Assembly (NCBI GenBank): GCA_963930775.1
Contig: OZ005689.1
Location: 23,372,058-23,436,057 of the forward strand
Source of the DNA: Cliona cf. orientalis
Taxonomy: Eukaryota > Porifera > Demospongiae > Clionaida > Clionaidae
Direction of reading: 5' to 3'
DNA length: 64,000 nucleotides
Positions 3,654 to 63,790 of this stretch are shown here, one piece after another. Positions within the stretch are counted from its first letter, which is position 1. Every line of letters starts with the position of its first letter. The notes beneath the pieces are model-generated. The model had not been told where the DNA came from. It worked only from the letters and a program-made list of their open reading frames with translations, and did no database searches. Position numbers and translations under genes: made by a program.

Positions 3654-5060
3654 TTAGTCGTCGAGCACTTTGCTGAATGGGATGGGTATGTGCTGTAGTA
3701 CAGAGGATGATAAGGGCACCAATGCTGTAAAATGACTGTGAGCAAAAAACAGTGCTAGTGGCAAGTGTGGTAGTGTTGTAACATCACCTGACATGAGCAA
3801 TGCTCTATGTACACTACTGCACCATTGTAGGTGTTGTCTCGTACCTGGAGCAAAGGCAAGAAATTTCTGAGCAAATATGTTAACATTGTCGATATCTGCT
3901 AGCATCATTGTTCGTACACCATCTTCATCAGTGCTTGAGAAAAACACATACATAAATATTGGCCTATCAAGGAGCAGTGACAATGGAAACAAGTGGAAGT
4001 CACTTCCCCAGGATCCAATGCGTAATGCATGTACAATGAGGGTGTTGGCATTACGCACAATATCTTCCAATGGGCGTGAGGGGAAAGCATAGTGTATGGA
4101 TCGAATCAGGACATCTCTGTACTTGACAGCAGCATATGCAGTCAATAGTCTGAAAATTTTGGAAAGCTGCTCACTACCACAGACAACTCGGGAGAGGGCA
4201 TGGTACATGCAGTCCCCATCTCCAGTGGTCAGTACAGGCTTGTATGTATGCAACATTAATGGGTGACATTGGTTTCCAATAGATACAGCTGTGGGTAAAG
4301 CTGGAAAATCATTGACATAGACTGGTGGCAGTGAATTAACAGCTTCTGCTATGGCTTCAAGAGCCTCATGCATTCCATTAAAGGCACCAATGATATTCTG
4401 CACAGAGCTCAATGACAGCATGGATGACAATACAAACTCTGGAGAGGTGTTACCAAGCAATTGTCGTACTGTTTGTTGCAACTGAGCACAGGCACTAGTC
4501 ACGTTTCTGTGAACAGATAAAGTATTAGATGGAGTAGTATTTGGAGTACCAAGTTTTGGCATTTTACTAGGGGATTGTTCATTACCATTATCATTGGCTC
4601 TCTTAATCCCTTTGGATGTCTCATGCTTAGGAAAACGATCCACAGATTGAGGCTGACTGCTGTGATGAGCTTGAGGCTTTGGCAGGCACACTACAGCACT
4701 TTTAGGTGTGGTACTGGAAGTGCTGATTGGACTGTCAGCAGGAGGCTCCGACTTTCGTGGACGCCCTCTACTACGTTTTGGAGGCTGACTGCTATCAGCC
4801 TGTGGCTTTGAAGGGCATGGTGTACGTGTGTTACACTGAGTACTATCAGGAGGTTGAGACTTTCGTGGACGTCCTCTACCACGCTTAGGCTGTGCTTTGT
4901 TAGATGGAGCTGGTACAGTATTCTTACGAGGACGTCCCCTTCCTCTTTTAGTTGAAACACCAGTACAATCAGAATGAGCACTATCAGGGTCAAAATTAAA
5001 CTGTATAGATGTCGGCTCATCACTATCTTTAGATGGTTTAGGAAGGGGAGCATTGCTCAA
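3654..5060 (-). CDS. AT-hook / OTU cysteine protease-like reading frame of the Helitron
   Basis: A 468-codon frame with three AT-hook motifs (two KRGRGRPRK, one KRSRGRPRK) in residues 35-105, a linker rich in Ser, Pro and Lys, and an OTU-type peptidase domain in the C-terminal half. The nucleophile motif GDGDCMYHAL lies near residue 283 and a candidate catalytic His is in AHSHFTAL near residue 446. OTU domains accompany the Rep-helicase in many animal Helitron/Helentron elements; AT hooks bind the minor groove of AT-rich DNA. The frame begins at TTG, not ATG, and is open further upstream past the helicase stop at 5090-5092, to which it is offset by one base. It may therefore be the tail of a longer Rep-Hel-OTU polyprotein split by a frameshift, or be reached by splicing. 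The frame itself is intact to its stop. Confidence 0.75.
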   Translation of the reverse strand: MSNAPLPKPSKDSDEPTSIQFNFDPDSAHSDCTGVSTKRGRGRPRKNTVPAPSNKAQPKRGRGRPRKSQPPDSTQCNTRTPCPSKPQADSSQPPKRSRGRPRKSEPPADSPISTSSTTPKSAVVCLPKPQAHHSSQPQSVDRFPKHETSKGIKRANDNGNEQSPSKMPKLGTPNTTPSNTLSVHRNVTSACAQLQQTVRQLLGNTSPEFVLSSMLSLSSVQNIIGAFNGMHEALEAIAEAVNSLPPVYVNDFPALPTAVSIGNQCHPLMLHTYKPVLTTGDGDCMYHALSRVVCGSEQLSKIFRLLTAYAAVKYRDVLIRSIHYAFPSRPLEDIVRNANTLIVHALRIGSWGSDFHLFPLSLLLDRPIFMYVFFSSTDEDGVRTMMLADIDNVNIFAQKFLAFAPGTRQHLQWCSSVHRALLMSGDVTTLPHLPLALFFAHSHFTALVPLSSSVLQHIPIPFSKVLDD

Positions 5061-5089
5061 AAAATCATGAGCTCTTTGTGGATGCTCAA

Positions 5090-8000
5090 TTACCTCAGTT
5101 GGGGAGTGGGACGAATCACATCAACATTATCACACCACTGCAATAGCTGTTGATAGAATGGTTCAAGGTAGATGGCAAAGGGATGAAACTCCCATAATAC
5201 TAGATCACTCAGAGTTCTGACTCTGCTTAGAGCTACATAAGCTTGACCAGAAGCAAAAAATGTCTCTCCCAAGCATACTACAGCCTTTTGAACAGTACAG
5301 CCCTGAACTCGGTGTACTGTCACACCATAGGCCAGCTGAAGGGGAAATTGTTGACGTAGTATGCTATAGGATGCACCACGGATTTCAATCCGCTGTCTGA
5401 ACCTAGGGACAGGATGCTTGTGGGCTGGATTGGCAAGCTTGGCTATAACAATGCAACTAGGATGGAGGGAGGTGACAACAGCTAGAGTACCGTTGACCCA
5501 ACCTCCATCAATGTTGATATTACGCCTTAAAACAACACGGGCACCCACTTTGAGTACTAGTTTATCGGGAAGTCTCTCACGATACTTAAGAACTGTTTGT
5601 TTGTCGGCCTCTCTTAGTGGGTGGCCATGATGGTCAGTGTCTAAGGCTTCATACAGACTCTCTCGTCCATCAATTCTGTGGATACAAAGGTCATTAACCT
5701 TATCACACTCATCCCTGGTGCTACAGATTACAACAGTTCTATCTATCTGTATGTTGTCAACATTTCGAGGCTGAAGTACACCTCTGAGAACATCAATGAC
5801 CTCTTTGTCACACACACCCATCCTGACTTTAGTCAGGACACTAGTTAGGACAGGATCCTGAGACCTTTTGATCTCTCTGAGGACCAAAATAGAGAATGTT
5901 TGCCAGAGATGGGTACCAAATAAATCACTCCTACCCACAGCAGGCAACTGGGCAGGGTCCCCAAGCATAACAACATGCCTACCACCCCAGGGTAGCCTAG
6001 ATGCACCATGTTTGGCGAACTTTCTACAGAGGCCCTCCGCTACACGGAAAAGGTAATAGTCCAGCATACTGAACTCATCAATGACTATTACATCAGTCTT
6101 CCTCAATTTGGTCACTTGCACAGTGCCATTCTCTAAGGTGCTATTGCACTCGATGTCTAGAGAAAAAAAATTGTGGAGAGTTGTTCCTCCTATGAGGTGG
6201 GCAGCAACACCACTGGGAGCCACCTTTGTAACCACTAGGCCCTTGGACTTGGCCAACTCTATTAAACCATTCAACAGATAGGATTTGCCAGTTCCAGCTG
6301 GCCCCACTATGGCTGCACGGACCTGTTTGTTCTGGTTGAACTGACCCTCAACCCACCTGTAGGCTCTTAATTGGGATTCTGTAAAGGTACTAACAAATGT
6401 GCTCAAATCAACACCAGAACTGGTAGGGAGTAGGTCACCCATATCACTGTGAGGGTGATTCAACATTTGGTCTGTTACAGTAGCCTCAGGCTCATCCTGC
6501 TCACCAAGGATAGGAATATCGCTCAAAAATGTGTCAGCTTCTTCTTCAGATAAGAAGCCATGCTCAATATACAACTGTGCTAAGGATCTCAGCTGGTCTG
6601 TGTGAAACCCCCTTGAGATTGCTGACTGCAAGCAAGATAGTGCATCAAGATGGGCATCACACATTCCACTTTCGGCACAGAGCTCTACCCAAGACTTAGG
6701 AGGATTCACAACAACCTCATGGTTTTCCGTCATAGGCACACTGAGGAGATACTTCTGTTGGTAGTACTTCTCAGTGTCATCTCCAACTGAACTGATGAAT
6801 CGGTGTCTAGTAATGACCATTTTGGCCCGCCTAATCCAATAGTGACCCACTCTGTCAGCCAACATGGTACCAGGGGGATATGTGCTCAAAACAGACACCA
6901 ATTCATCTCTGGGATTGGCTTCCATAAGCCAGTGTTTTGAGTTCAAACCATTCTCTAGATCAGGGTGGTAAAAGTCTATGGTTTCATAAAAACCATTTGC
7001 AGCAATAATAGATTCAAGGGGGAAATCATTACACTCCTCACTCCGCTCATCTATTCCAGATTCAATATAAAACTGCACAACAGCTTCAACTACTATGGGG
7101 GCTACATCATGTGCCTTCAAGCACGTTTTCAAGGCTAAAAGGTCAAAACTATTCTGAATCTGGAAGCTACACTCAGAGAGTAAATCAGCAAGGAGTGCCT
7201 GAGCCGATTCCAAGGTTGCCTTGGCATCCAAGAAACCACTGAAATCATCGGCACCCTTGCATTTGATGACACGCTGGCTATTCGCCCGTGCTGCTTTTTT
7301 TTGCTCATCTTGGTTGGCAGAACGCCACCACTGATAAAACTCGGGATAAGTGAGTGAATCAAGCTGAGTAGGCCTCTTCAAATAGGTTTCTAGCTTGGTC
7401 TGCAAGTAAATATCCTCACTATCATCTGAAAGTGAATTAAGCTCAAACTTTGGCTTCAGCATTCTTTGGCAAGGATTGAGCTCAGTCTGCAGAAATATCA
7501 CTTGCCTAGACATCTGGTTCTGATGAAAGCCCATGAGTACATCAAGCACTTCTACTGAGCCAACAACACGTGTTCTGAGGAATTTCTGGGGATCACTACA
7601 CTTCTCTGGGAGCTCTATCTTCAGACTAGGCTCAGGTTTTGAGATGTACTTGGCTAAATACATCTCAAAACCATGCTTGGACACAATCTGTACGTTATGA
7701 GCTGCACCCCAGAGGATTGCTATCTTGGGGTTGTAAGGCACTACATTTTTATCTTCGTCATGTCGACGCACATACAAGTACCTAACTCCATCTTTATCAA
7801 GACAGACAGTTTCATGGGGGACTTCAAATGGAAATCCATACTTGCATTAGGACAGTACCTTCCCATGACTGCCCTTGAAACAACGGGATGGGTAACATGT
7901 TTTGTGCTGGAGCATGTTCTCCACAAGTTTCCTAAGGTAAGCAGCCCTCATATCACTGGTATCAGCTGCACGTGGCATCTCTGCCATCACAGCATGCGGA

Positions 8001-9640
8001 GGTGCAGTCCCTGGCTCTACCCAGATCAACATGTGCCAGTGAACTGCACCTCTGCGCTGGTACTCTTTTTTGACAACAGAATCAATTACCACTCCAAGTG
8101 GGCCACCTTCAGGTGATCTCAAAATGCTCATGAACCAGTCAAATCTCTTCTCTGCAGCTAGTACTGAGATTTGAGGTTTGAATCCAACAGGCTGCCTATC
8201 TGAGAGGTCTTTGGCCAGATCTTGCACCTCAAGCTCACTAGCACGTGCACCCCACCCATCTCTTAAAGTGGCTTGTACTTGGGGCCACCCATCATATGCT
8301 GTGAGGGTAAGGAAAAAGTTAGGCAAACCCCTTTGTTCTACAAAGGCCACAAGATCAAGGCCAAATGACCTCCAGAACTCCTTGCTACCAGGAATAATCC
8401 TTGGTATTTCGGTTCCATACACTGAGTATGGATCAGATGGTCCAGACACTCTTTCTGCAGTTAGGGGTTCAGATACTCTTTGTACTTTCACAACTTTGCG
8501 AGCCTCATGCATGCGGAGGCGGACTTTCAGCATGTAGTCATACTTAAAGAAAGGATACAAACGATCCTCAGCATAAAAGCCACGTACATCATAGAGCCTC
8601 ATCTTGACATGGGCATTAAATGGAATGGGGCACTTGTGATACCATCCCCCGTAGCCCCACGGGTGGAGGTGTGGAAAAGCCTTACAGTCAAGGAACTCTT
8701 CCCCATACTTAGCCTGGCATAGGCTTACTATGCTTTCTGATAAATCAGGACGGGGATACTGACGGCCAGCAATATCATCATGCATATCCCCCCGTATGAC
8801 GGGAAAATCATCAAAGTATTTTGCATCCAATGGGAAAGCCATAGCAGCAGCCTCATCTTCCAAAAGCTTTTCAAGTGATATGCTTTGGTCCTCTAAAAGC
8901 TTAGGATTGATAAAGCTGGGCTTATAATATCACATGAGCGTCTCATACTGGGAAAAAAATTTGGAATAAAGGTGGTTGTTTGCATGCATCCACCGCACGG
9001 CTCTTTTGATACGCAAGGAAGATGCAGGTGAGGGGCTCTTCTCCCAAATGTCACTGTCTTTGAGAGCTAGGAAACCAAACAGGCCATGATAATGCTTATC
9101 TAGTTTTGTGATAGCATTCACTTCACCTTGAAGATGGCGATACTGAGTCATGCTTGCCTCCCTGACAGTACTGGAAAACAGGCCACAGACGGATATCTGT
9201 CCACGTTCATATTGGTTTGCTAGAGACTGTATCTCAGCAGGAAAGCTCATATCCCACTCATTCATAGGCTTCACATTTAAATCACAATCAAGGACACACC
9301 CAACATGCTGGATTGATGGAATAGTATTGGACCTACAATAGGCACAGCAGTACCACCGCTCTTTAGTTGATGTACCCCTCTCAGTGTATACAAACCCCGC
9401 AGTACAGCTAGGTACAACTTGCAAATAAGCACTTGCTGGTGCCTCATCTTCAGTCATGCCACTGGGTTTATCTACAAGGAAGGTGTGGGCACCATCAACA
9501 CAACTCCACAGTAGATGCCCACACCCATAACACACAGGAGCGCACGAGGAACAGAACGCAAAGAACCATTCTAAATAACGCACACTAGGACAATTAATGC
9601 GTACGCGCACGCGCACGCGTGGATACAATCTTTGACACAA
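5090..9640 (-). pseudogene. Helitron RepHel (zinc finger, HUH Rep, Pif1 helicase), two in-frame stops
   Basis: One continuous frame of about 1,517 codons, interrupted only by TGA at 8932-8930 and TAA at 7849-7847. In order: a Cys-rich finger region (CSSC, CYGCGH, CCAYC) near 9540-9290; the Helitron-like N-terminal region; the HUH metal site HWHMLIW near 8045; the rolling-circle tyrosine pair in YLAKYISK near 7655; then a Pif1-family helicase with Walker A GPAGTGKS near 6290, Walker B DEFSML near 6080, GDPAQLPAV near 5960, and VTVHRVQG and ALSRVRTL near 5320-5220. This is the full catalytic set for rolling-circle transposition in the nucleus. Sequence around both stops continues the family pattern, so these are nonsense mutations in an otherwise well preserved gene. 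The frame starts after a stop with no ATG, so the first exon is missing or lies upstream. Element termini were not identified. Confidence 0.9.
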
Positions 9641-20624: not shown

Positions 20625-23623
20625 CATAGGCGGCGGAAGCGGGGGGGCACCAGGGGCACGTGCCCCCCCTTGAAATGAAACATTTGTGCTGTGCCCCCCC
20701 TTCACAGGCTTGCTAATACAACAGTATATAGCTAACCATGGCACATCCATGCAGCAATTTTACACTTAACTGACCTTCAATTATTGATAAATCAATTCAT
20801 ATTTTTAAGTGAATTCTGATTTTTCAGCACGGACTTGTCCTGCTAGCTATATAGTCCCGCTCCGTTTTGTTATGGTGTGCATCTTTTGGAACTAAACCAA
20901 GTAACATGTTGCTGACTCAGCACCATTCTGTCAGTCAGTATGGCCCAGCAAAAGTCTCTTTTTGATTATGAAGGTGTAAAAAGGAGGAGGATCTCAACCA
21001 GGTAGTGTTGAGAAATTATCTAGTCTAGCTAGTATTGGCATACAGATGTAGCTAGCTAAAGCTGGGAAGATTGACAGCTATAATTTATTCACATACTACT
21101 CTGGCATACAAAATGTAGCTCTGGAAACAGTGAGATTTCTGATCGTGAGTCATCTGTGGATCGTGGAGATGGTGCCAGCGTAATGGATGATGATGCTGAG
21201 ACCCCCTTGAACAACAGCGGTGGATCCACATTTGATAGCAGTGATATGGAAACTCCTGGCTCACTGTCCACACCCGCCACTATCAGTCCTGGATCAATAG
21301 TATGCAATGCACAATGCTGTGATTTAGCCAATCCAGTACAGATTAGGGACAAAGATGCTATTCAATCAACGCGGAAATTGCAAGGCAAAAAGTGGCGGCA
21401 GTTCTCTCCTGATTGGTACAAATCTTACCCTTGGTTAGTCCTTTGTACGACTAGATCAAAAGTCTTGTGTTCTTATTGTAGCTCTTGTCAGAAGCGGGGG
21501 TTACTGACTGAAAAGGTTGCAGGTGGGGGTGATGCATTCATGACTATAGGATTTGATAATTGGAAAAAGGCACAGGAGTACTTTATACAACATGAAAAAT
21601 CAGTTGTTCATAGGGAGTCTGTGCTTAAGCTTGAACTAATGAAGCAACCCACTGTTATCTCTCAGCTAAGTAGTCAGGCAAAACGGGACCAGAAGCAAAG
21701 GCGAGACATGCTACTAAAACAGCTATCATCGTTGAGATATCTACTTAGACAAGGTCTGGCCATTAGAGGGCATTCAGAAAGTGAAGGTAACATAATGCAG
21801 TTGCTAATGCTTCGCTGTGAAGATATCCCTGAATTAAAACAATGGCTTATAGCTAAGAAGTACCTTTCACATGATATACTCAATGAACAGATTGGTCTGA
21901 TGGCTAACCACCTTTTACGGAAGCTATTGCAAGAGATTAGGGAGGCTACAGTATATGCCTTAATTGCTGATGAAGCCACTGACGTAAGCCATAAGGAGCA
22001 ACTTTGTATAACGATTAGGTGGGTTGGTAGTAACTGCGTTATACATGAAGATCCTTTGGAGCTAATTAATGTTCCGAAGACTGATTCTGCAACACTTACT
22101 ACTTTGATTAAAGACAGCTTAGTGCGATTATGTTTACCACTTGGGCAATGTAGAGGGCAAGCTTATGATGGAGCATCTAACATGATGGGCCACATAAATG
22201 GTGTAGCTGCACGCATACAAAGGGATGAACCCTCAGCAATTTATGTACACTGCTTGGCCCATTGTACCAACCTGTGTCTTCAAACTGTAGGAAGGCAGGT
22301 GACTCCTGTTAGGGATGCATTAGAGCTTGTGAGAGAAGTGAGCCAACTCATTTGTTTTTCACCCAAACGCTCAACTTTATTTGAGTCAATGCAGTCTCAG
22401 CTTTCACATATAGTTCTCCTAGTCTCAAACCCCTGTGTCCTACTCGCTGGACTGTTCGTACAGGAGCTATCAATTCTGTTCTTACTAACTATCAAGTTCT
22501 TTGTGATACTTTGTGCAAAATTAATGAAGAAGGTCGGGATGAATATGCGATGAAGGCAGGGGGTATTCTGCATGCAATGGAGAAGTTTTGCATGTTTTTT
22601 GGTCTCCATCTCTCCCATATAGTCTTTTCTGCAACAGAACAGCTTTCACTCAGCCTCCAGGGTAAAGATACTACCATGCAGGATGCAATACAGGCTTCTA
22701 ATCTCACAATAAAATATTTAGAAAGGCAACGATCTGATGAAGCTTTCAATCATTTTTATCATCACCTTGTTGAAATTTCCAAGGAATTGACTTCTGAGCC
22801 TTCCTTGCCACGATATGCCAGGCGACCAAGGAGGATAGATGATGGTGAACCTGCACACCAATTTGAGACACCAAAAGCTTACTTTCGACAGCAGTACTTC
22901 GAGCTATTTGACATAGCAGGTGGGGAGTTGAAGCGTCGATTTCAGCAGGAGAATGGCTTACCAGTTGCTGCTACTATCGAGAAACTACTCTTGGAAGCAG
23001 CTCAGTCTACACTATCTGATAGCTTTGACGTTGCAAAAGAGTTAGCATTATATGCTAAGGATGTGGACATTCCTCACCTCAAAATGGAGTTGCAAATGCT
23101 TCCAGATTTGGTTAAAGCCTACAATGAGGCCAACCATAAAATTTGTACTGTTACTAACGTTCGTACTGTTGCACAACTATTGAACGATGTTAGCAACAGC
23201 AAAGCATTATTTAGAGAAGTATACAAACTCACAAAAATATTTTTTACTATTCCAGTCACGACAGCAACTGCAGAAAGAACATTTTCTGCACTTCGTCGTT
23301 TAAAAACATTTCTTCGATCCACACTAACTCAGCCCAACCTCAACTACATTATGTTGTTGCATGCACACAAAGAACGAACAGATTGTATTGACCTCATGGA
23401 AATTGCCAAGGAGTTTATATCAACAAATGAAAGACGACGAAATTTTTTTGGTACCTTTTAGTTTATTACCTGTCAGAATAATTATTATTGTGCCATGCAT
23501 GGTGTCACTTGTTTATGTCGTGTTTGAATTATTGCAAATTTAATGATAAAATTAATATTTGGAATTATGGAACTGACAAGAGCACAGTGCCCCCCCAGTC
23601 AAAACTATCTTCCTCCGCCTATG
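20625..23623 (+). mobile_element. hAT element with 5-bp target duplication
   Basis: The ends CATAGGCGGCGGAAG and the complement of CATAGGCGGAGGAAG form short imperfect inverted repeats. ATACC at 20620-20624 is repeated at 23624-23628. The 2,999-bp unit encloses one spliced transposase gene. hAT elements usually duplicate 8 bp; a subgroup with 5-bp duplications is known, and three smaller elements in this window (28691, 53068, 60140) also show exact 5-bp duplications. Confidence 0.88.
20940..23461 (+). pseudogene. hAT transposase (TTF zinc finger, DUF4371-like, hAT dimerisation), one frameshift
   Basis: Exon 1 (20940-21001, MAQQKSLFDYEG...) joins exon 2 (from 21119) in phase across GTAGTG/TGTAG. 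A TTF-type zinc finger (WRQFSPDWYKSYPWLV ... LCSYC) begins about 90 residues in. The catalytic domain carries LIADEATDVSHKEQ and GQAYDGASNMMG, and the C terminus has the hAT dimerisation signature TATAERTFSALRRLK. A single frameshift near 22420 splits the frame: the first runs to 22553 out of family pattern, while the family sequence (LCPTRWTVRTGAI) continues in the next frame to TAG at 23459-23461. Total length about 800 residues is normal for this type. The enzyme would act in the nucleus on the element ends. One repairing indel separates this copy from a full frame, so relatives may be active. Confidence 0.88.
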
Positions 23624-38480: not shown

Positions 38481-39953
38481 GGGGCGAGCCTGAGCGAGTG
38501 TATAGAGCACATACCCCACACGCACATTGTGCAATCTATAGATCTGTTTTTGTTGCTGCCTGGTTGCATCAAGGGGCTCTTGGAGATCATGTGGCGAGCC
38601 AAAATACCACTGACTCTCTCTCTGCGCCAGATCTAGACTGGGTACATATGTATAGGTAATACATTCTGATTCGATGGGGCTTTGCATTCCAGTCTTGGCT
38701 AGCTTACCAGCCTAACATGTGCACTAGCATTATTGACGACCTTTACCAGTCCATAATATTGAATGTTACGCGCATGAGCAGAAAGCACAAGGCCTGCATG
38801 CATAATGCATTGGTGGGCACTGTCGATAGGCGTGGTTACGAAGGCTAACAAAAAGGCACCATTTGTGACGCTCGTGGACCATATCCCTCGATTCGAAGCA
38901 CACTGAAGCCTGTTTTTCGCCAGCTACATTTGAGCTTATCGCCCTCATATGAACTTTACGGACACTATTCTGAAAGGGCGCAATGAGATATTGCCAGAAC
39001 CTTGCACATTTCACCATACTTTTATTTTCTGCATGCAACAAAGAGGCTGGGCACAAGACTACTGATTACAGGCGAGATCAAATTTGCCATCACAGATTGA
39101 TGTACAGTGCTAATTAGCTCAAAACAGCAACAATTGAAAAACGTCTCTACAGAAACAAAAACTAGGCTATAACTAGCCATACATTGTGCCCGTGTATGAG
39201 AGCAAACGCTTCATCAGAAGTGAACGGCTGACTGGGTTATGAATAACAATCAGAGCTGTGCATCATTCATTCCATTGATATATTATTGCCTAATACCAGT
39301 ATGAAGCCTTTCAAATCAATAATCTTGAGAAAAGTCTGCACGCAGAATGGGTCGAAACTAAGGATTTGACCTTGGGGAATTTTGATTCACACCTTATGGC
39401 CCTTTGAAGTTATCCCGTATGTTTGAATAGAAAGCCATGCATTTGCAATGTTTTCCACCCATGCGCTATGTGAGGGGCGGGTCACGTGCGCACATAAACG
39501 CAGACCATAACCCATATTGGTCAAAATTGACGTATATATAGGCTGACTCCTTGAATCTTGCCCATACCCAGTGCACTACGAAACAATTTGAGCTCTATAG
39601 AGCACATACAGTAGTGGTCAATAAAAAGTTTACGTTCCGTTCACCGTTCTACGATCGTTGAACGCATGCGTTCGTCTAAAAAAACGACGACGTGCGTAAT
39701 ATGGACCATACGGTACGGAACGATGACGCGGACGGTACAAAGATCGCGATCGTTTGACACCTGGTTAGAAGATGCTGGGACGCTTTAAAAGAACGATCGT
39801 GGGCCAGCTGATCGCAGAAGCTCCTCATCATTCTACAGGTGTACCTCATCGTAGAAGCTATTCGTCTGTCTATTTTACCATCGCGTATATTTAGCAGAAG
39901 CTAGTCGACACATCGAACCAGCTGGCCAGGGCAGAACTCAACCAGCTTCAACC

Positions 39954-42900
39954 ATGGCACTGCGAAAGCAAATAAAAAAGCTTCAGGAGAAGAAAAGTAA
40001 GTACAAGACATAAAATACAGCTATTAATAGTGCTTGTAGCTACTGGTGATGTCGCTCATAAAGCATGCTGGAGAGTGCTCTGTCTAGCTGTTTATTATTT
40101 TAAAATTGCTGTACCACAGAGCGCTACTACCTGATATTTTGGCCATCAGAGGAGATGTACAGTGTTATCCAGGAGTCCAGAATAGTAGAACCCAAAGATC
40201 CAGGGGTTGACGAGACTATGAAAGTGAAGGAAGGAGGAAAAGCTTATTTCGGCAAAGTGGCAGCCGTGGGAACCCGAGCAGATGTTGAAGCGCGCATGAG
40301 GGAACTGGAGGGTAATAACACAGACGGGTCACCAGTTGAAACAAACGTTGAGTTAAGCTATAATTATGTAATACAGTGTGCACATGGCAGATTGTCCGAC
40401 TTGCATGTACACGTACATTTTTAGTAATTATTAATATTGGAAGTACAGTGAAGTTATAGAATGATGCATGTACATGTAAATAGAAAGTGAAGGCAGCTGC
40501 ACATTGTGTTTTATACATGTACATTGTACTATACTTACATGCTCATTTTATACGTACTCACATGTACAATGTACTTGCAGAACAAACGACAGCAGATGAA
40601 GACTCCAAGAGAAGTAGGGGTGCTAAACCGAAATGTAAGCTTTAACATCGAGTGTACATGTAGATGTACCTCAATAACATCTTACTTGCACTGATTATGT
40701 CCCGCATTAAAACATATGCAGCTAAGAAACGACCGAGAGAAAAGAATGAAGCTGTGGCTGGGAAACCACCAATGAAGAAGGCAGAAGGTTTGTTATGCAT
40801 TTTTCCATTACCTTGTTTACAATTTTATGCTATTGTTACAGGCAAAATTATACGCATTGAAAGTCATGCTCCATCTACATCTACCAAGTCATCAGAGAAA
40901 GCACCAGCAGCAGATCTATCCTCTATCCAGTCTTCAGGAAATGTGGGAGAGGTTCCCTCATCACAGTCATTCTCAAATGCAGGACAGCCTCAGTCTACGG
41001 AGAGAGCAGGACAGCCTCAGTCTACCGAGACAGCAGGACAGCCTCAGTCCACGGAGAGAGCAGGACAGACTCAGACTACGGAGACAGCAGGACAGCCTCA
41101 GTCTACGGAGAGAGCAGGACAGCCTCAGACTACGGAGAGAGCAGGACAGCCTCAGTCTACCGAGACAGCAGGACAGCCTCAGTCTACGGAGAGAGCAGGA
41201 CAGCCTCAGACTACGGAGAGAGCAGGACAGCCTCAGTCTATGGATAGAGAAGGACAGCCTCAAACTATGGAGAGAGAAGGACAGCCTCAGTCTACCGAGA
41301 CAGCAGGACAGCCTCAGTCTACGGTGAGAGCAGGACACTCCGAGTCTACCGAGACAGCAGGACAGACTCAGACTATGGAGAGAGAAGGACAGCCTCAGAC
41401 TATGGAGAGAGAAGGACAGCCTCAGACTACGGAGAGAGCAGTACACTCTGAGTCTACCGAGAGAGAAGGACACCCTGAGTCTACTGAGACAGCAGGACAG
41501 CCTCAGACTACGGAGAGAGCAGGACAGCCTCAGTCTACGGAGAGAGCAGGACACTCCGAGTCTACGGAGAGAGCAGGACAGCCTCAGTGCAGGACACTCC
41601 GAGTCTACGGAGAGAGCAAGACAGACTCAGTCTATATATCGAGAGAGTAGGACAGCCTCCATCTACTAAACAAGGTAAATTATCACAGATTGATAATTTA
41701 TACTACAACGCACAAAGGCTGTCAGTTTATACAATGACAGACAGGTACCATCCCCAACTTTTCCTAGACACAAAGCACAGAACAACTACCAACCTACATG
41801 TAATTGCACCTAGTGCTTAGTAACCTGGTTACAGGATACCATTGGCATGCTACATGTACATGTAGTACATGTAGTCTGCTTTTACTCCCCCCCTCCCATT
41901 TTCCATTATCAAAAAGCTAATGTATATCTCCTTTATTCAATACAGATGCGAGTGTTATTGATTTGACTGGAGTAGCATCCAGAAAGTCCAGTCCACCTCA
42001 AATTCCATTTGTGCTAGGAACATCACTGTCTTTGTCCACCACCTCATCAGTGGATAAGGAATCAAAAGATACCAACTTCCTCTCTCTGGAGGCAGAAATT
42101 CAAGATCTCATGGAAAGAGTGACCACGTTGGAGTCAGGCCAAGCACACGTCATTGAGATGCAACACTCCATCATGAGAAACCAACAGCAGATTTTTGGGA
42201 GGCTGGCTGCACTGGAGAAGAATTCGTACACTTATGAACACTCATTTGGCAGACCTCAACCTGTCTATATCCCTCCTCCTCCAAGGCACGCACCTCCAGC
42301 GCTGGATACCTCCCTCGACCTCAGTTTCGACTCCCCTGGAGGTCCTACAACACCCTGCAGGAATCGCCCACCTCTGTACATTCCAGCACAAGCAGCTACA
42401 CTTGATCCGCAACCCACACCACACAGTTCGTATACTCCATCACGACAATCCCCTCCATATCTAGAGGAGAGTGATAATTTTCTTGGACTTGATTCATTTG
42501 AGGATGAGAATGATGGAGCGGATCTTGCCTTATCCACCAACCATCCACCACCTCACCATTCTTTCCATAAGGATAATTTCCAAGGCCGTGCCACTGGTGA
42601 ACGTAATCTTGGAGCAGGTGTTCCCCCACCTCCTCGAAACCCTTTCCGGCCTCTCCAGCCAAAGTACCCCCCTAGCAGTGTCGATGGACTTAGCACGTGT
42701 GCCCAAGCCCCGTCTAAAAGGAAAGTAGCTGTAATCAAGTTACCATCATCAGCCATCAACAAAGGCCAATTGCTGCAGGCAACTACTGTCTTTCGAAATA
42801 TCCAGGTCTCATCTATGAAAGCAAGGTTGGTACTCTAGCAACCAAATTGGCTAGGGAGGCCTTCTTTGGCGACGATGTGCTCGTGCAGTGTACAGTTGCA

Positions 42901-43077
42901 GGCGAGCGAGATTATCCAGGGCTACCTGAGGAGGAGCTAAAGCAGCTTAAGCATGCTCTTTTCATGCAGTTCCCTTGGTTCTGGCATTCTCCACAGGAAT
43001 TTGAACCAACATGGAAAAAGTGTCAAGCATCAATAGGACAAGCTTGTAAACGTTTAAGAACCAATACAAAAGTTTGA
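39954..43077 (+). pseudogene. BEN-domain-like protein, six exons, cargo gene of the Tc1 element
   Basis: Exons: 39954-39996, 40120-40311, 40581-40634, 40722-40787, 40842-41674 and 41946-43077. The five introns all have GT-AG ends and phase 1; the shortest is 54 bases. The N-terminal part has a basic helix (MALRKQIKKLQEKK) and a small conserved-looking module (RYYLIFWPSEEMYSVIQESR ... FGKVAAVGTRADVEARMREL) of a kind I have seen upstream of BEN domains. A basic stretch (KKRPREKN) follows, then about 24 copies of a 9-residue repeat (AGQPQSTER), a coiled coil (LEAEIQDLMERVTTLE), a Pro-rich linker and a C-terminal BEN-like domain (GTLATKLAREAFFG ... TWKKCQASIGQACKRLR). BEN domains bind DNA in chromatin regulators. 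The frame is broken inside the repeat near 41590 and by one missing base near 42806; both could be decay or assembly error. Confidence 0.6.
40976..41640 (+). repeat. 27-bp coding minisatellite
   Basis: About 24 tandem units of GCAGGACAGCCTCAGTCTAC plus GGAGAGA, encoding AGQPQSTER with Ser/Thr, His/Gln and Arg/Thr variants. The last units carry an 11-base deletion and a 4-base insertion that shift the frame before the exon end. Confidence 0.92.
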
Positions 43078-43101
43078 CAATAACAAAAACATTATAATAT
43101 C

Positions 43102-44167
43102 TTAATAACCAGTAGCAGCACCATTTAATTCTATAACTTTAGGTATTACTTTTTTTAGGTGTCTAATGTACTTCATGCATTTATGTTGATCTACCGTAGA
43201 CCAAAATTCAATAATTCCATCTATCAATTCATCCTTGGTCTTGGGCTTGACTTCACGGCGTATGTACTCTTTAAGTTCATGCCACAAGTTTTCAATCGGG
43301 TTCAGATCTGGTGACTCGGCAGGGGTCTTCCACCAGTGGATACCGTTGTCCCTCATCCACTGCACTGCATACCCAGATGTATGCTTAGGGTCGTTATCTT
43401 GCATAAACTTGTGACCACTTGGGTAGACTTCATTCACGAATGGTAGCAGTGTTCCGTCTAGGATCTCAACAAACAACTCTTTCTTCATGATGCCTTCAAA
43501 CACACAAATTCCTGTCCTTCCCCTCTCGCTGATCCCGGCCCACACATGGACTTTTGTTGGATGCTTGGGTCTATGTATGGATGTACATGTACACATTAAA
43601 TTTTAGTGTATGATTAAATTTGAACATCTGAGAGATGATACAAATTATCTACATCTCACCTTGGCTTGGGACGTGGTGCCTCACCGCGTTTTCTACACGC
43701 AAAACGGCGATGACTCTCAATTTGCACTGTGCATTCATCCGACCATATCACATCTTCAAAACTGCTGTGCAAGTGCTGCTGTGCCCAGGCAAGCCTCTTT
43801 GCTGGCAATAAGCCGAGCCACGGAAGGTCCAACCCAAAGCCGTTCTATACCGTAGAATAGTTCTCAAAGAGATCGAGTAGCCTTTCTCTACCAGTAAGCG
43901 ATGTAGCTGGTGGGCCGTAGTCTCGTCGTCTAGCCTCATCCGCTCCTCCACGATACGCTTGATCTCGGCTGTAATCTTGCTGGGTCAACCAGAACCTGGC
44001 TGTCTCGCGATCGTACCAGTCGCTTGGTATACTTTTAGAAACTTTGCGACGCCGCACCTAGAGCAACTCAATCTCTCCTCCTCGAGCGCTTTGGCTATGG
44101 ATGGTGGTTTTAAGCCTTGGTTGAACCAAAAGAGAATCCGCTGCTTCTTGTACGTTGAGTACACCAT
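43102..44167 (-). pseudogene. Tc1-type transposase (DD34E) with a spliceosomal intron
   Basis: From ATG at 44167 the N-terminal helix-turn-helix region reads MVYSTYKKQRILFWFNQGLK; a TGA at 43987-43985 stands where GSGRPSK is typical of the family. The frame goes on through RLLVEKGYSISLRTILRYR, then two small frameshifts near 43800-43830 precede VIWSDECTVQIESH with the first catalytic Asp. Codons ...PRPKP then meet a GTGAG donor at 43659; an 89-base intron ends in ACATAG at 43571 and the frame resumes PKHPTKVHVWAGIS, restoring the usual Tc1 sequence exactly. The second Asp (MQDNDPKHTS) and the Glu (SPDLNPIENLW) are separated by 34 residues. Stop TAA at 43104-43102. The enzyme would cut at the element ends in the nucleus; this copy cannot. 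Confidence 0.88.
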
Positions 44168-45049
44168 CCTTTTCACACGTACAAACGTCCGAGTGTCCGT
44201 TCGTTCGTACTAGTACTGTACTTAGACGGTTCGATCCCCCCACAACAAGTACTATCTGGTAACGCACGCGTGCAGCGCAAGATGCTTGAACGTTCGCTCG
44301 AAACGGTGTCAAGACCGTTACGGTACTATGCTGAAACGATCGTTGTACGGAACGGAATGTAAACTTTTTATTGACCGCTACTCTACCCCATCGCACATTG
44401 CATCTGCATCCACATCTATTTGCATAGAAATGAGAGCTGCAGCAGTAGTGTGCATACATGTATGTAGCTGACGTATACACATGGCCTGCAGTGGATGGGT
44501 CGAGTCGATAGGTGTCGCCAACAATTGAAAAACGCAGTGTTTGCGATGCTCGTGGGCCTTGCCAAGCAATTTGATATACAGGTGTTGGTATTGAGAACAT
44601 ACCCTCAATACCTGTGTTCAAGAGTAAATAATAAGGAAGGGAAGAGAGTATCTAATGTGCTACACACCCGTGTAATATGTGTTCGGAGAGTAACTTGACT
44701 TCCCGCCTTGCGCACGTGACTAACTCAAGGGGCTGAACATTCAGGTTGGTTTGAGTTTGAGTTTGGATTTCTGGCGCGTGTGCCCATATTGTGAGTCTGG
44801 TGTTACAGAGTGGCTTTGTAGGGCTGTTAGCATACAAACCTAATGTTACTGTCTTGCTACTGGTGACCAAGAGATGTGGTGAATTCAGCGCAACTCTGTA
44901 TAGGATACTTCACAGTGAACTACAGTGCAGCCTCGATTATCCGGGCCCCTTTATCCACCGGCCGAATGCCTGATTTATGATGGCCTAGCCTATAAACAAT
45001 ACCTATACAGTATGATCATGGTCAGTAGTATAGTGTTCGGGAAATTACT

Positions 45050-59905: not shown

Positions 59906-62900
59906 ATGTCAAATAATGATAGTCTCAATGTGACAGTGGAGGGTGATGAAGAGATTGACAGTCTCAACGCGACAGTGGAGAGTAATGATGGCTCCCTGTA
60001 CGTTCCAACCCCTCAAATAAAGGTTAGAGAGAGCATAGAAAATACGTCAATTATTCCATCAAATATTTGCTTCGTGGACTTGAAACAATTGAACAAGTTC
60101 ATCAAGCAAGTGAATCAAATACGTTGTTGTGCCACACCTCAGGGGCGTAGCTAGCATAGGGCTCAGCGGGCTCGAGCCCCCCCTTTGTCTTCCCATAGTG
60201 GGCTCAGTGAGTGGGCCCACTGTCTATGGATATACAATAGCTTGGCCTGACAAGCTGAAGCTGCATGACAAACTATATAAAGTTTGTAATTAAAATGATA
60301 TAGAACACTAAGGATAAGTTTCTATACTTACTATTTTAAGGTCGTTCAGACTCGTAGCTGCTAAGCGAGGTAGCTACGTATACCACTCCAAGAAACAAGA
60401 GATCGAAAGGTCAAACGATGGGCGTGGTCGACTGCAGTATTAGTATACTGTACATGTAATAACGAATAATTGACCATGGTCACGTGATATAATTAGTTGG
60501 CGTGGTCAATCGGAAAATTTTTTCGCACGCTTCGCGCGCACTTCTTTTTTATACTCAGCCCCCCTTTCTATAAATCCTGGCTACGCCCCTGCACCTGGTT
60601 GTAAAGGTGCATTGTGTCCCATTCATGTGAAAAGCCTTGGGCTGGGTGGTGCTATTTCTATCACCTATGCTTGTAACGGTTGTGCTAGTCAGTGGGCATT
60701 GTTTAAAACATCTAAATACGAACTTGGCTGTGCTACCGAAATTAGTATTGCTGTGCAGGTGGCTTTTATCATAGCTGGTTGCACGCATGTGACTTATTAC
60801 AAGGTATTGAAGCATGCACTTGGGATTGAAGGAGTTAGTTGGCCGTTTGACTCGACCATCAAGAGAATGTACCCTATTGTCAAATAGATGGTCGATAAGA
60901 TGTGCAGTGATGCAAAGGATGACATGCAACGCATGGACCAAAATGAACTGGGTTCATGGAGTCGTGCCGTCACGTCCACTGATGGCACGTGGATAGCACG
61001 TGGATGATACGTGGTCATCACAGCAAGAATGCTACTTTCAGCATTCGAAATTTCTACAATGGAGCTCTTCTTTACCGCAAGCATCTCTGTCAGAAAGGCA
61101 GAGATGACATAATTAAAGAAGAGCTCTACCAGGGGACATCCAAGGGTACTGAAGGCTATGCTGCACGCCTTACATTCAAAAAAGCCAAGGAAGAAAGGAT
61201 GAACATTGCCATTCAGTGGCAAAATGCCGACTCCTCCTCTGCTAAGGCAGTGACAGACCACTTTCCCAATGCAGAGATCATGATCTGTGGTGGGCATGCC
61301 GGTAGGGCCCACAAGAAGCAGCTGGAAAAGCTGCAGAAAATTAAGTCCTTCACTGTTGATTTAATAAGAAAGTATAAAGAAACTTTTTTCTCTGTTGGTG
61401 ATGTGGTCTGTCATTGCTCAAGGCACAAACAGGGATGTGGTTGCTTCTCCAAGGCGTTCATTGAAAAGGCTAGAAACTACTTTTCGCTAATTTCGTCGAG
61501 TGAATCTGACGAAGAGTTTGCGACCAGAATGAAAGGATTGGCCAGACATGCCCGCGACGAGCACGATTGGGGGGTTGGTAGGTGTGACTTTCACCAACTT
61601 CGAGTATGCAGCTGTGGCGAGTGTGAGGATGGAGAGGATCTAAAGTGCGAAGGAACAGACTATCACACAAGGCATGCACTGACATATCCTTTCCACTCTC
61701 TGGCTTACGAAATTGAATGCCATGAGAGAGCAGAAATGGACGAACAGCTGGTTCACCCCATTCTCAAAAGGGGGCATTCCAACTGGTTGGAGGCCTCCCA
61801 CAATGTGTTCATTCGCTTCAGACCAAAGCACATCTTCCTCGAGAGGCTACACTATGTGGTTTCAACCGAGCTGGCTCTGCTGCAATCCAACATGACATAC
61901 ATGTATGAGAAGCGTGGGCCACAATATCATTGGGTAGTTGAGCTGTTTGAGCGTCTGAAGCTACCTGTGTTTGATGGTGTTCAGGCTGCTCTGGAGACAT
62001 TCGGTCGACAGAGAATGATGTACTTCGATCAGGAAAAGATCGATTTCTCCAAGCGGAGGCGAATACAGTTGAAAAGTGAGCGAACAGTGGATGCACAGTG
62101 TTGCAAGCTGTGGTCAAAGAAGCATGGCCACGATACCTATGGCAATGACGACAGTGACATAGACGAAGATGAACTCAAAGGAAAAGGACAGAAGAAGCGT
62201 ACAACTGGAGGGACGTGCAAGTGTGGGTCCACCACTCACCTTCGTACCAACCATAGTGAATGTCCTTTGAACGTAAAAAATCAGAGAAGTGGTGTTTCTG
62301 TGGATGACAGAGCATCTGACAATAATGATGTCATTTCCTATTCTGAGGATACTGTCAGACGCAGAAAGCATTTCTTTGGAAAAAAGTGTGCCTACCCCAA
62401 CTGGTGACACTAGTTGGTGTTTTGAAGATGACGTAATAAGTGGTATCTGCGTGTGCGAGCGCTCGGACGAGCACACAAGAGGGATTGCCCCTCAAACTCA
62501 CGAAATCGTCACGTTGGGTGCACATTGTTTCCCAAGGCCTCTTCTGCTGACTCTGACAAGAATGGCAAGGATGATGCTTGTGTGAAATCCAAACCTCCTA
62601 AAGCAAGCCAGCCGGTCGATACGAGGTCTACTTGTCGAGGAAAGAGAGAAAAGCCAGGTGGCGAGAAGCTTCCCCCAGCGAAAAAGCCTAGGCCCAACTT
62701 CAAGGTGGGTGACTGCGTGAATTTGCATGATAGCAAATTGGGCCAATGTCACCTTCCTTGCTGCGTTGTGCAAGTGTTTGGTGATCAATGCCTACTATGT
62801 TGTCACAAGGGAGTTCTCACTACTGGCCATGCAAAGAGGCAGTTGACGGCTATCAGTGGTGATCTATCCATTTCAGTAGACAACTGGCGAACTGCAGGAA

Positions 62901-63790
62901 GGACCTCACTACGAGATGTAGCAAATGATTCTGCAAATCTCAAAGTGTGTAACTGTGGCCTAACCAAGACTGTTGTTGAGCATGTTGTTGACCTGACTGA
63001 CGATCCCACAGCCTTGTCTTCAGCCGATGGTTCTGCAGTTGTAAGCAACACCTGGGTGTCCACTCCACTGTACACCTTGCACATAGATAAGAAACGGGAA
63101 ATCGTTTCATCTGATGGTTGGCTCTCAGACACAGTCATTAGGGTCGGTCAGTTGCTCATCTTGCAGGAATTCCCAAACATAGTCGGCCTGCAAGATCCGG
63201 CAGTTCACAAAAGTCTGTCGTTCCAAATCCTCAGAGGAGAATTTGTGCAGATCATCTTTGTTGGAGGCTGTCACTGGTGTACTATTTCCAACGTTGGATG
63301 TGACGATGGAGTGGTCAATGTGTACGACAGCATGTACTCCAGTGCTTCCAGTGGGACGGTCAAATTGATTGCCAGCCTTGTGTTCAGTCCTGCTAAACAG
63401 CTTGTAGTGAGAATGATGGATGTTGGAAGGCAGTCAAATGGTTCTGATTGTGGAGTCCTTGCCTTAGCATTTGCATACGACATTTGCGGTGGTAATGACT
63501 CATGCAAGATCGAGTACGATCACAGGTCTATGAGGCAGCACTTGGCAGAGTGCTTGGAGAAATGTCGCCTCTCGCTTCCCAGCGGTCGGCGAGCGCAGGA
63601 CTGTTGGTGTCAGGCACACCCAGTCAGTAGACCTTCACTGCTCCTGCCGCTTGCCCGAGGAAATAGGTGATAAAATGGCCGAGTGCGATGTATGTAAAAC
63701 CTGGTACCACAAACACTGCATAGAGGTTCCTAACTATGTTTTTGAAAAAAAATATGTCCCCTGGAAGTGTAAATGATGTGCCGCAGTGTG
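59906..63790 (+). pseudogene. Mutator-like element protein with Ulp1-like protease and PHD finger (copy B)
   Basis: Starting at ATG 59906 (MSNNDSLNVTVEGDEE) after a TTTAG acceptor, the protein runs through a Cys-containing region (RCCATP, then after the MITE GCKGALCPIH ... TYACNGC), a transposase core with TSTDGTW and RGHHSKNATFSIRN, DADSSS-like QNADSSSAKAV, GGHAGRAHKK, an acidic/basic linker and a knuckle-like CxC...H...C (GRAHKRDC). A Ulp1/C48-type protease fold follows, with His in GGCHWC near 63275, Asp in VNVYDS near 63325 and Cys in NGSDCGVLAL near 63455, and then a PHD finger. Damage: a MITE at 60140-60591, TAG at 60885-60887, an 11-bp duplication at the first catalytic Asp (near 60992), frameshifts near 62390, 62456 and 63570, and a late stop in the PHD finger. 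Assignment to the Mutator-like superfamily is by motif memory only. Confidence 0.65.
60140..60591. mobile_element. 452-bp hAT-type MITE inside a coding exon (CACCT duplication)
   Basis: Ends CAGGGGCGTAGC and its complement GCTACGCCCCTG are flanked by CACCT (60135-60139, 60592-60596). Removing the insert and one CACCT makes the surrounding transposase frame continuous, an independent confirmation of both boundaries. Confidence 0.92.

Follow-up and report, generated by a model that had tools for sequence, protein, structure and literature searches.

A two-gene Tc1/mariner element in the sponge Cliona cf. orientalis, and relatives across the genome, pairing a transposase with a predicted BEN-domain protein

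Tc1/mariner is the textbook transposon that needs only its transposase, usually its sole gene though not strictly a defining trait, and elements are usually 1.3–1.6 kb long. The present study analyzes a 4,775-bp element in a 64,000-nucleotide stretch of the genome of the sponge Cliona cf. orientalis (C1:23372058-23436057, hereafter the window; positions are those of the window unless a contig or locus is named). In this element a DD34E transposase gene and a second, multi-exon gene with a predicted BEN domain lie within one pair of terminal inverted repeats (TIRs). Sequence comparison shows that both genes share that pair and that copies at different sites keep both, that both are constrained between transposed copies and diverge together, and that the window element itself is best read as a decayed member of a two-gene clade. 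The interpretation we favor, and consider probable rather than secure, is of an ancient Tc1/mariner clade encoding, besides the DD34E transposase, an accessory protein with Tudor-like, coiled-coil and BEN parts that would act on the element ends and on chromatin.

Results

A search of the 216.8-Mb assembly (149 contigs) with the window element as DNA query gave 77 matches, from 40 of 171 candidates scored, and 20 matched regions were extracted for reading. Ten copies were taken as full length, having both termini and no large deletion (the window copy, L002, L009, L010, L018 and L022–L026), and all ten hold the BEN gene and the transposase between the termini in the same order: TIR, N-terminal domain, coiled coil and BEN domain reading inward, then the oppositely directed transposase and the second TIR. 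The sole-gene habit of Tc1/mariner is therefore absent here. The N-terminal domain went undetected by tblastn in L002 and L010, and a further TIR pair (L014) bounds a 2.2-kb internal-deletion derivative. Of 11 elements inspected, 10 are flanked by TA on both sides and L009 is without the left one. Three pairs of copies are closely related in their longest alignments, at different sites and with unlike flanks (L024/L025, 91–95%; L009/L010, 88–93%; L019/L023, 91–95%). The nearest relative of the window element, L002 (C1:35771839-35776599, 92% identical), was considered as a second independent insertion and rejected: both its flanks match the window locus (L001) at 94%, in two long alignments spanning the 7.7-kb locus, and since this flanking DNA is common to both, L001 and L002 are a segmental, in-place duplicate pair. 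The TIR core pattern occurs 259 times at no more than 2 mismatches, against 0 in a reversed control. Among 100 places listed there were also pairs of window-lineage TIRs about 600 bp apart, resembling miniature inverted-repeat transposable elements (C1:26619194-26619803, C7:6217949-6218521 and C1:30501832-30502441, for example).

Within the window (Table 1), the TIR arms counted with the outer TA (39607-39642 and 44350-44385) are 36 nt each and 92% complementary, and the plus-strand BEN gene and minus-strand transposase converge with 24 bases from stop to stop. The transposase matches DDE_3 at 65.6 bits (cut-off 28.6; E=5.6e-18) with 34 residues, counted by eye, from the second D (QDND) to the E (PIEN). 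Its helix-turn-helix (HTH) fragments score below the Pfam cut-off, and the L025 transposase reaches 32.6 bits for HTH_Tnp_Tc3_2 (cut-off 31.5). The six-exon model of the BEN gene, made by eye, has GT/AG at all internal borders, and its exon-2, coiled-coil and C-terminal peptides were found again in other copies; exon 5 contains 22.6 copies of a 27-bp repeat. A sequence-only reading of this DNA had described Tc1-type, TA-flanked TIRs, a DD34E transposase and, convergent with it across 24 bases, a six-exon gene, all of which was borne out. To that description can be added that the window copy is decayed, with frames broken in both genes: the BEN gene changes frame inside the exon-5 array and again near 42.8 kb, and transposase exon 1 has an in-frame stop at about 43985 as well as a frame change. 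Open coding exons for both genes are present in other copies, such as L026.

The same reading had likened the C-terminal domain to BEN, and this stands through relatives and predicted fold; the window copy by itself reaches only 17.5 bits against Pfam BEN (PF10523), below the gathering cut-off of 23.2. Near copies are likewise below it (L019 17.2, L025 14.4, L002 13.9, L016 13.4), and the L026 domain had no Pfam BEN match at E 1. The window domain does, at E=2.3e-22, match C3:8982965-8983237, which scores 33.9 bits against Pfam BEN and adjoins a transposase 69% identical to that of the window. Sister lineages L036 (27.0), L038 (30.2) and L035 (24.4) exceed the cut-off with L037 just below it (22.7), and L033, a BEN gene with no clade transposase nearby, scores 25.2 bits (tblastn 8e-15). 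A profile of the sister lineages matched BEND3 in the PDB at 3e-10, and hhalign aligned the window-lineage profile to it with 89.5% probability (E=2e-6). The window domain was also modelled from 18 sequences (pLDDT 76.4), and of the first 12 PDB structures matching the model 11 were BEN domains (BANP, BEND3, NACC1, BEND6 and insv; prob 0.57–1.00, TM mostly 0.45–0.58). It is on the C3 locus, the sister lineages, L033 and this predicted fold that the domain is assigned to BEN. The N-terminal domain had no Pfam or PDB sequence match, and a model of it from a single sequence (pLDDT 82.4) resembles Tudor: of the 20 leading PDB matches, 17 are Tudor domains by title (13 being 53BP1), at E of at least 0.077. 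NCBIfam gave no match for the three proteins tried. Related, non-identical proteins occur in other public records, with 19 matches for the L026 partner and 7 for the L037 partner.

The pairing extends well beyond the window lineage. When transposase loci were compared with the window BEN query alone (113 of 143 rows used), a partner was found at 48 of 53 loci of at least 65% transposase identity and at 1 of 19 loci of 55–60%. The latter figure raised the possibility of sister Tc1 lineages without BEN, which was rejected, as L036–L038 all carry BEN and further queries agree; 1/19 is a limit of sensitivity, because the window BEN query is too diverged to detect the sister BENs. All eight distant loci (L035–L042; transposase 47–65% identical), chosen by hand among strong transposase matches, have a BEN gene beside the transposase, and L036, L037, L038 and L042 have clear TIR pairs whose sequence is unlike that of the window beyond the first bases (L039 has weaker arms, 77%). 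Element size ranges from 4.0 to 6.5 kb. L036 lies on C2, and both its termini have matches on two other contigs: on C13 at 97–98%, where two gaps inside the copy measure some 0.5 and 0.15 kb, and on C11 at 98%, with one terminal piece at 91% and a break of some 4.2 kb. A fourth copy, on C1, is of the BEN half only (96%).

A search with the sister transposase (116 of 475 candidates scored) gave 113 rows merging to 95 loci, and three BEN queries (92, 42 and 45 rows) merged to 131 loci. A BEN gene lay within 4 kb at 76 of the 95 transposase loci, the arrangement being convergent in 60, with BEN downstream on the same strand in 11 and upstream on the same strand in 5. For the top 26 transposase rows the figures were 25/26 within 3.5 kb and 26/26 within 6 kb. 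Positions shifted by -300, 200, 500 or 1000 kb gave 0–1 of 95, and loci of another IS630/Tc1-type clade (a control set of 115, from 115 of 600 candidates scored) had BEN nearby in 4, all four of them 0.2–3.4 kb from a BEN-clade transposase. Viewed from the other side, 86 of 130 BEN loci (two element-derived queries plus Pfam) were within 4 kb of a clade transposase.

Ratios of nonsynonymous to synonymous divergence (dN/dS), estimated by NG86 on conserved pieces cut at BLAST borders, were low for BEN between related copies: 0.17 (L024/L025), 0.10 (L019/L023), 0.10 (L016/L026) and 0.23 (L016/L019), remaining pairs having dS above 1.5 or being saturated. In the in-place duplicate L001/L002, BEN differs by 5 nonsynonymous and 1 synonymous changes in 92 codons (ratio 1.5), showing no sign of constraint on 6 changes only; a ratio of 0.89 for this pair was discarded since it included a stretch out of frame in L001. 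Transposase exon 2 gave 0.04–0.19 at dS below 1.5 (duplicate 0.35) and exon 1 gave 0.08–0.49, with 0.08–0.55 for the N-terminal domain and 0.20–0.61 for the coiled-coil stretch (duplicate 1.36). Transposase and BEN distances were correlated among 12 copies (r=0.83; 0/5000 permutations reached this value), seven non-duplicate copies (r=0.55; 68/5000), 13 copies including distant ones (r=0.91; 0/5000) and six distant copies (r=0.65; 52/720), and the two trees recover largely the same groups, several nodes being modestly supported.

The outer 300 bp have a CpG observed/expected ratio of 1.33–2.11 in 10/10 window-lineage elements and 1.56–1.85 in 4/5 sisters, against 0.41–0.59 in element bodies; 300-bp blocks at 1.3 or above numbered 1/91 in flanking DNA and 4/197 in the window. 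The end distal to the transposase is likewise CpG-rich in the head-to-tail L036 and L038. Among 8-bp palindromes, ACGATCGT is the most frequent in the ends, with 16 occurrences across both 350-bp ends of eight elements and 0 in the bodies of those eight, in the remaining 59,221 bp of the window and in 29,256 bp of flanks. It stands 33–45 bp from an end in 9/10 elements, with extra sites elsewhere in four.

Three other groups of coding sequence were seen in the window. Helitron-like genes occupy 3657-9640 on the minus strand (Helitron_like_N, Pif1 helicase, OTU protease domain), a hAT-like gene in overlapping frames lies at 21084-23458 (DUF4371, hAT dimerisation domain), and a Ulp1-type peptidase at 62432-63667 (Peptidase_C48, 22.0 bits). 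Elsewhere in the genome, a second IS630/Tc1-type clade has a different conserved second gene, convergent with the transposase at 5/5 loci extracted (Table 1), with a SHOCT-like C-terminal stretch in 4/5 (best 24.2 bits, below the cut-off of 27). This sponge genome may hold many Tc1-type elements with two genes.

Table 1. Positions of the two-gene element and its parts in the window, and of second-clade loci elsewhere
Feature	Position	Strand	Basis
Two-gene Tc1/mariner element, 4,775 bp	39609..44383	.	TIRs and homologous copies in same genome
Left TA target-site duplication	39607..39608	.	sequence
Left TIR	39609..39642	+	inverted-repeat match
CpG palindrome ACGATCGT, candidate protein-binding site, left end	39651..39658	.	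position 45 from end
BEN gene exon 1, start ATG	39954..39996	+	by-eye model, GT donor
BEN gene exon 2, Tudor-like N-terminal domain	40120..40311	+	AG/GT; conserved in other copies; predicted fold
BEN gene exon 3	40581..40634	+	by-eye model, AG/GT
BEN gene exon 4, basic	40722..40787	+	by-eye model, AG/GT
BEN gene exon 5; 27-bp repeat array 40979-41588, frame broken within	40842..41674	+	AG/GT
BEN gene exon 6	41946..43077	+	AG acceptor, TGA stop
Exon 6 parts: coiled-coil-like, then Pro-rich stretch, then BEN	about 42062-42220 (coiled-coil-like); about 42.8-43.07 kb (BEN)	+	sequence, fold
Transposase exon 2: DDE_3, DD34E	43102..43570	-	DDE_3 E=5.6e-18
Transposase intron	43571..43659	-	GT/AG borders, by-eye model
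Transposase exon 1: HTH region, first catalytic D; stop near 43985 and frame change	43660..44167	-	ATG, GT
CpG palindrome ACGATCGT, right end	44336..44343	.	position 43 from end
Right TIR	44350..44383	-	inverted-repeat match
Right TA target-site duplication	44384..44385	.	sequence
Second-clade loci	L043:2507-3289, L044:2460-3215, L045:411-1265, L046:362-1282, L047:424-1254		

Discussion

The sequence-only reading had proposed a Tc1/mariner element that recruited, or evolved with, a BEN-type partner, and had pointed to other copies of the same termini as the place to check this; the plus-strand gene is there in all ten full-length copies and its domain is recognizable as BEN. The partnership is in fact stronger than was proposed, because the partner is kept across the clade, including elements with unrelated TIRs. 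The reading's further ideas, that the partner could guide targeting, silence the element or shield it from silencing, are conjectural. A BEN gene that has travelled and evolved with the element points to a need for a helper protein, whether for transposition or for escape from silencing. As an accessory factor, the protein might work as follows: its BEN domain would bind CpG-containing palindromes in the CpG-rich ends, with ACGATCGT, about 45 bp inside, the candidate in the window lineage; it would multimerise through the coiled coil and help the transposase to find, pair or keep accessible the element ends; and the Tudor-like domain would tie the complex to chromatin. In this it may resemble the Myb-like partner of the PIF/Harbinger transposase, which recognizes a 9-bp subterminal motif, interacts with the transposase and is required for transposition (PMC9710019). 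A BEN fold at transposon ends has precedent in a bacterial Tn3-family transposase, where the inverted repeat is read by a domain resembling BEN in fold and DNA-binding surface (PMC9579193), and BANP binds palindromes with CGCG (PMC10206803). A bolder version, to which we give only tentative credence, is that the second protein is obligate across the clade, a Tudor-like/BEN chromatin adaptor that would recognize CpG palindromes, keep the ends both unmethylated and accessible, and let chromatin state direct transposition or integration; Tc1-type elements here may then generally be binary, the second clade having an unrelated, SHOCT-ended partner.

Several results weigh against a clade-wide accessory protein of this kind. 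Recognition of BEN in the window lineage by sequence profile was dropped, as that profile reached no BEN chain among PDB sequences, and Foldseek E-values were non-significant (best 0.19 for BEN, 0.077 for Tudor). The dN/dS estimates come from few unsaturated pairs of related copies and from BLAST-bounded pieces. No BEN match lay within 4 kb at 19 of the 95 merged transposase loci; six of these are in a repeated C6 region, with a BEN row 4.3–6.4 kb beyond each. (The repeated cluster of decayed transposase and BEN fragments on that contig spans C6:159120-941718.) No clear TIR pair was present in the DNA extracted for L035, L040 and L041. CpG-rich ends were rejected as a BEN-specific trait, since such a block lies upstream of the transposase at 5/5 control loci that lack BEN as well, and L039 has BEN with CpG-poor ends (0.49 and 0.27). 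The palindrome ACGATCGT is absent from L024 and from all sister and distant lineages examined; it was chosen post hoc and could equally be a transposase site, and its enrichment is not an independent test, given this choice and the relatedness of the elements. Lastly, mariner transposase alone has been reported as sufficient in vitro (cited in PMC5704228).

An alternative role, which we think rather unlikely, is that the BEN protein is mainly anti-silencing or self-regulating: it would bind the CpG-rich ends, taken to be unmethylated and, in convergent elements, to contain the promoter of each gene, and would control transcription and methylation there, not cutting and joining. This would be consistent with the contrast between CpG-rich ends and CpG-poor bodies and background, with the CpG richness of the end distal to the transposase in L036 and L038, with the predicted Tudor-like domain, and with BANP and BEND3, which are described as binding CpG islands and preferring unmethylated motifs (PMC11472053, PMC10602864); however, methylation makes little difference to DNA binding by the isolated BEN domains of BANP and BEND6 (PMC10206803), and CpG-rich blocks occur also at the control elements without BEN. 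Alternatively the partner may bring the element nothing, as passenger cargo, a host gene picked up a single time. The genome does contain BEN genes with no clade transposase close by (L033 is 32% identical to the element domain), but this explanation, very unlikely in our estimate, would not account for low dN/dS between transposed copies against no sign of constraint in the in-place duplicate (on its six changes), for retention of BEN down to 47% transposase identity, for the correlated divergence of the two genes, or for changes of gene orientation without loss of BEN.

The three gene arrangements could instead reflect independent captures of BEN by different Tc1 lineages. We consider this improbable: internal inversion accounts for orientation in fewer events, the same type of N-terminal domain is recognizable by eye in L036–L038, and the transposase and BEN trees broadly agree, within the modest support noted. 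Finally, the pairing could be an artefact of chance neighborhood or nesting of two unrelated repeats, and nesting does occur, as a 1.9-kb TIR-bounded Tc1/IS630-type element lies within a BEN-carrying Tc1 element at L038:450-2389. That such events explain the pairing is hardly credible, and is refuted by the shifted-position and other-clade counts, the few BEN neighbors of the latter all standing beside BEN-clade transposases, and by the single TIR pair that encloses both genes in every full-length copy.

Comparison with known systems places the clade within Tc1/mariner. With Tc1, Sleeping Beauty and ZB it has in common the DDE_3 and HTH domains, DD34E, the TA site and TACAGT TIR ends, whereas the sponge elements differ in their 4.0–6.5 kb length and second, BEN-domain gene, and the window-lineage transposase in having an intron. 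PIF/Harbinger is similar in joining a transposase to a fast-evolving DNA-binding accessory protein (PMC9710019) but differs in its 3-bp target site, Harbinger transposase and Myb/MADF partner; the window element, with TA ends, DDE_3 and a BEN partner, does not belong there. The BEN-like domain of Tn3-family transposases (DBD1), which reads transposon ends, is bacterial and part of the transposase (PMC9579193), while the sponge BEN is a separate protein with putative end binding. Mariner elements with Fanzor1, nuclease and methyltransferase genes also combine extra genes with TA sites, but the four related examples are single-copy and mostly virus-borne with varied cargo (PMC3627910), unlike the multi-copy sponge clade that keeps one partner. 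The Oxytricha TBE elements (42, 22 and 57 kD genes) are also multi-gene Tc1/mariner, with all genes under purifying selection, though in a ciliate, and the text available does not call the partner genes BEN (PMC4724952). The host proteins BANP, BEND3, NACC1, BEND6 and insv, similar in predicted C-terminal fold and, for BEND3, in the match to the sister profile, are transcription or chromatin factors not encoded by a DNA transposon. Literature searches on BEN with mariner or transposon, transposase, sponge and DUF4806 had no Tc1/mariner element with a BEN gene among the matches listed, Repbase and subscription papers being outside the search. Extra genes in Tc1/mariner are already known (PMC3627910, PMC4724952). 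DUF4806 has been described as a BEN subtype (PMC11075544), Hydra has an expansion of it along with transposase domains (PMC7642931), and it could be that the Hydra proteins are also transposon partners.

A chromatin-type DNA-binding partner has here been kept over great divergence and through changes of TIR and orientation, which makes the dependence of such an element on host chromatin, or its evasion of it, directly testable. The finding may also bear on the origin of BEN genes: with 86 of the 130 BEN loci close to a clade transposase, transposons may inflate, or be the source of, the BEN genes counted in some genomes.

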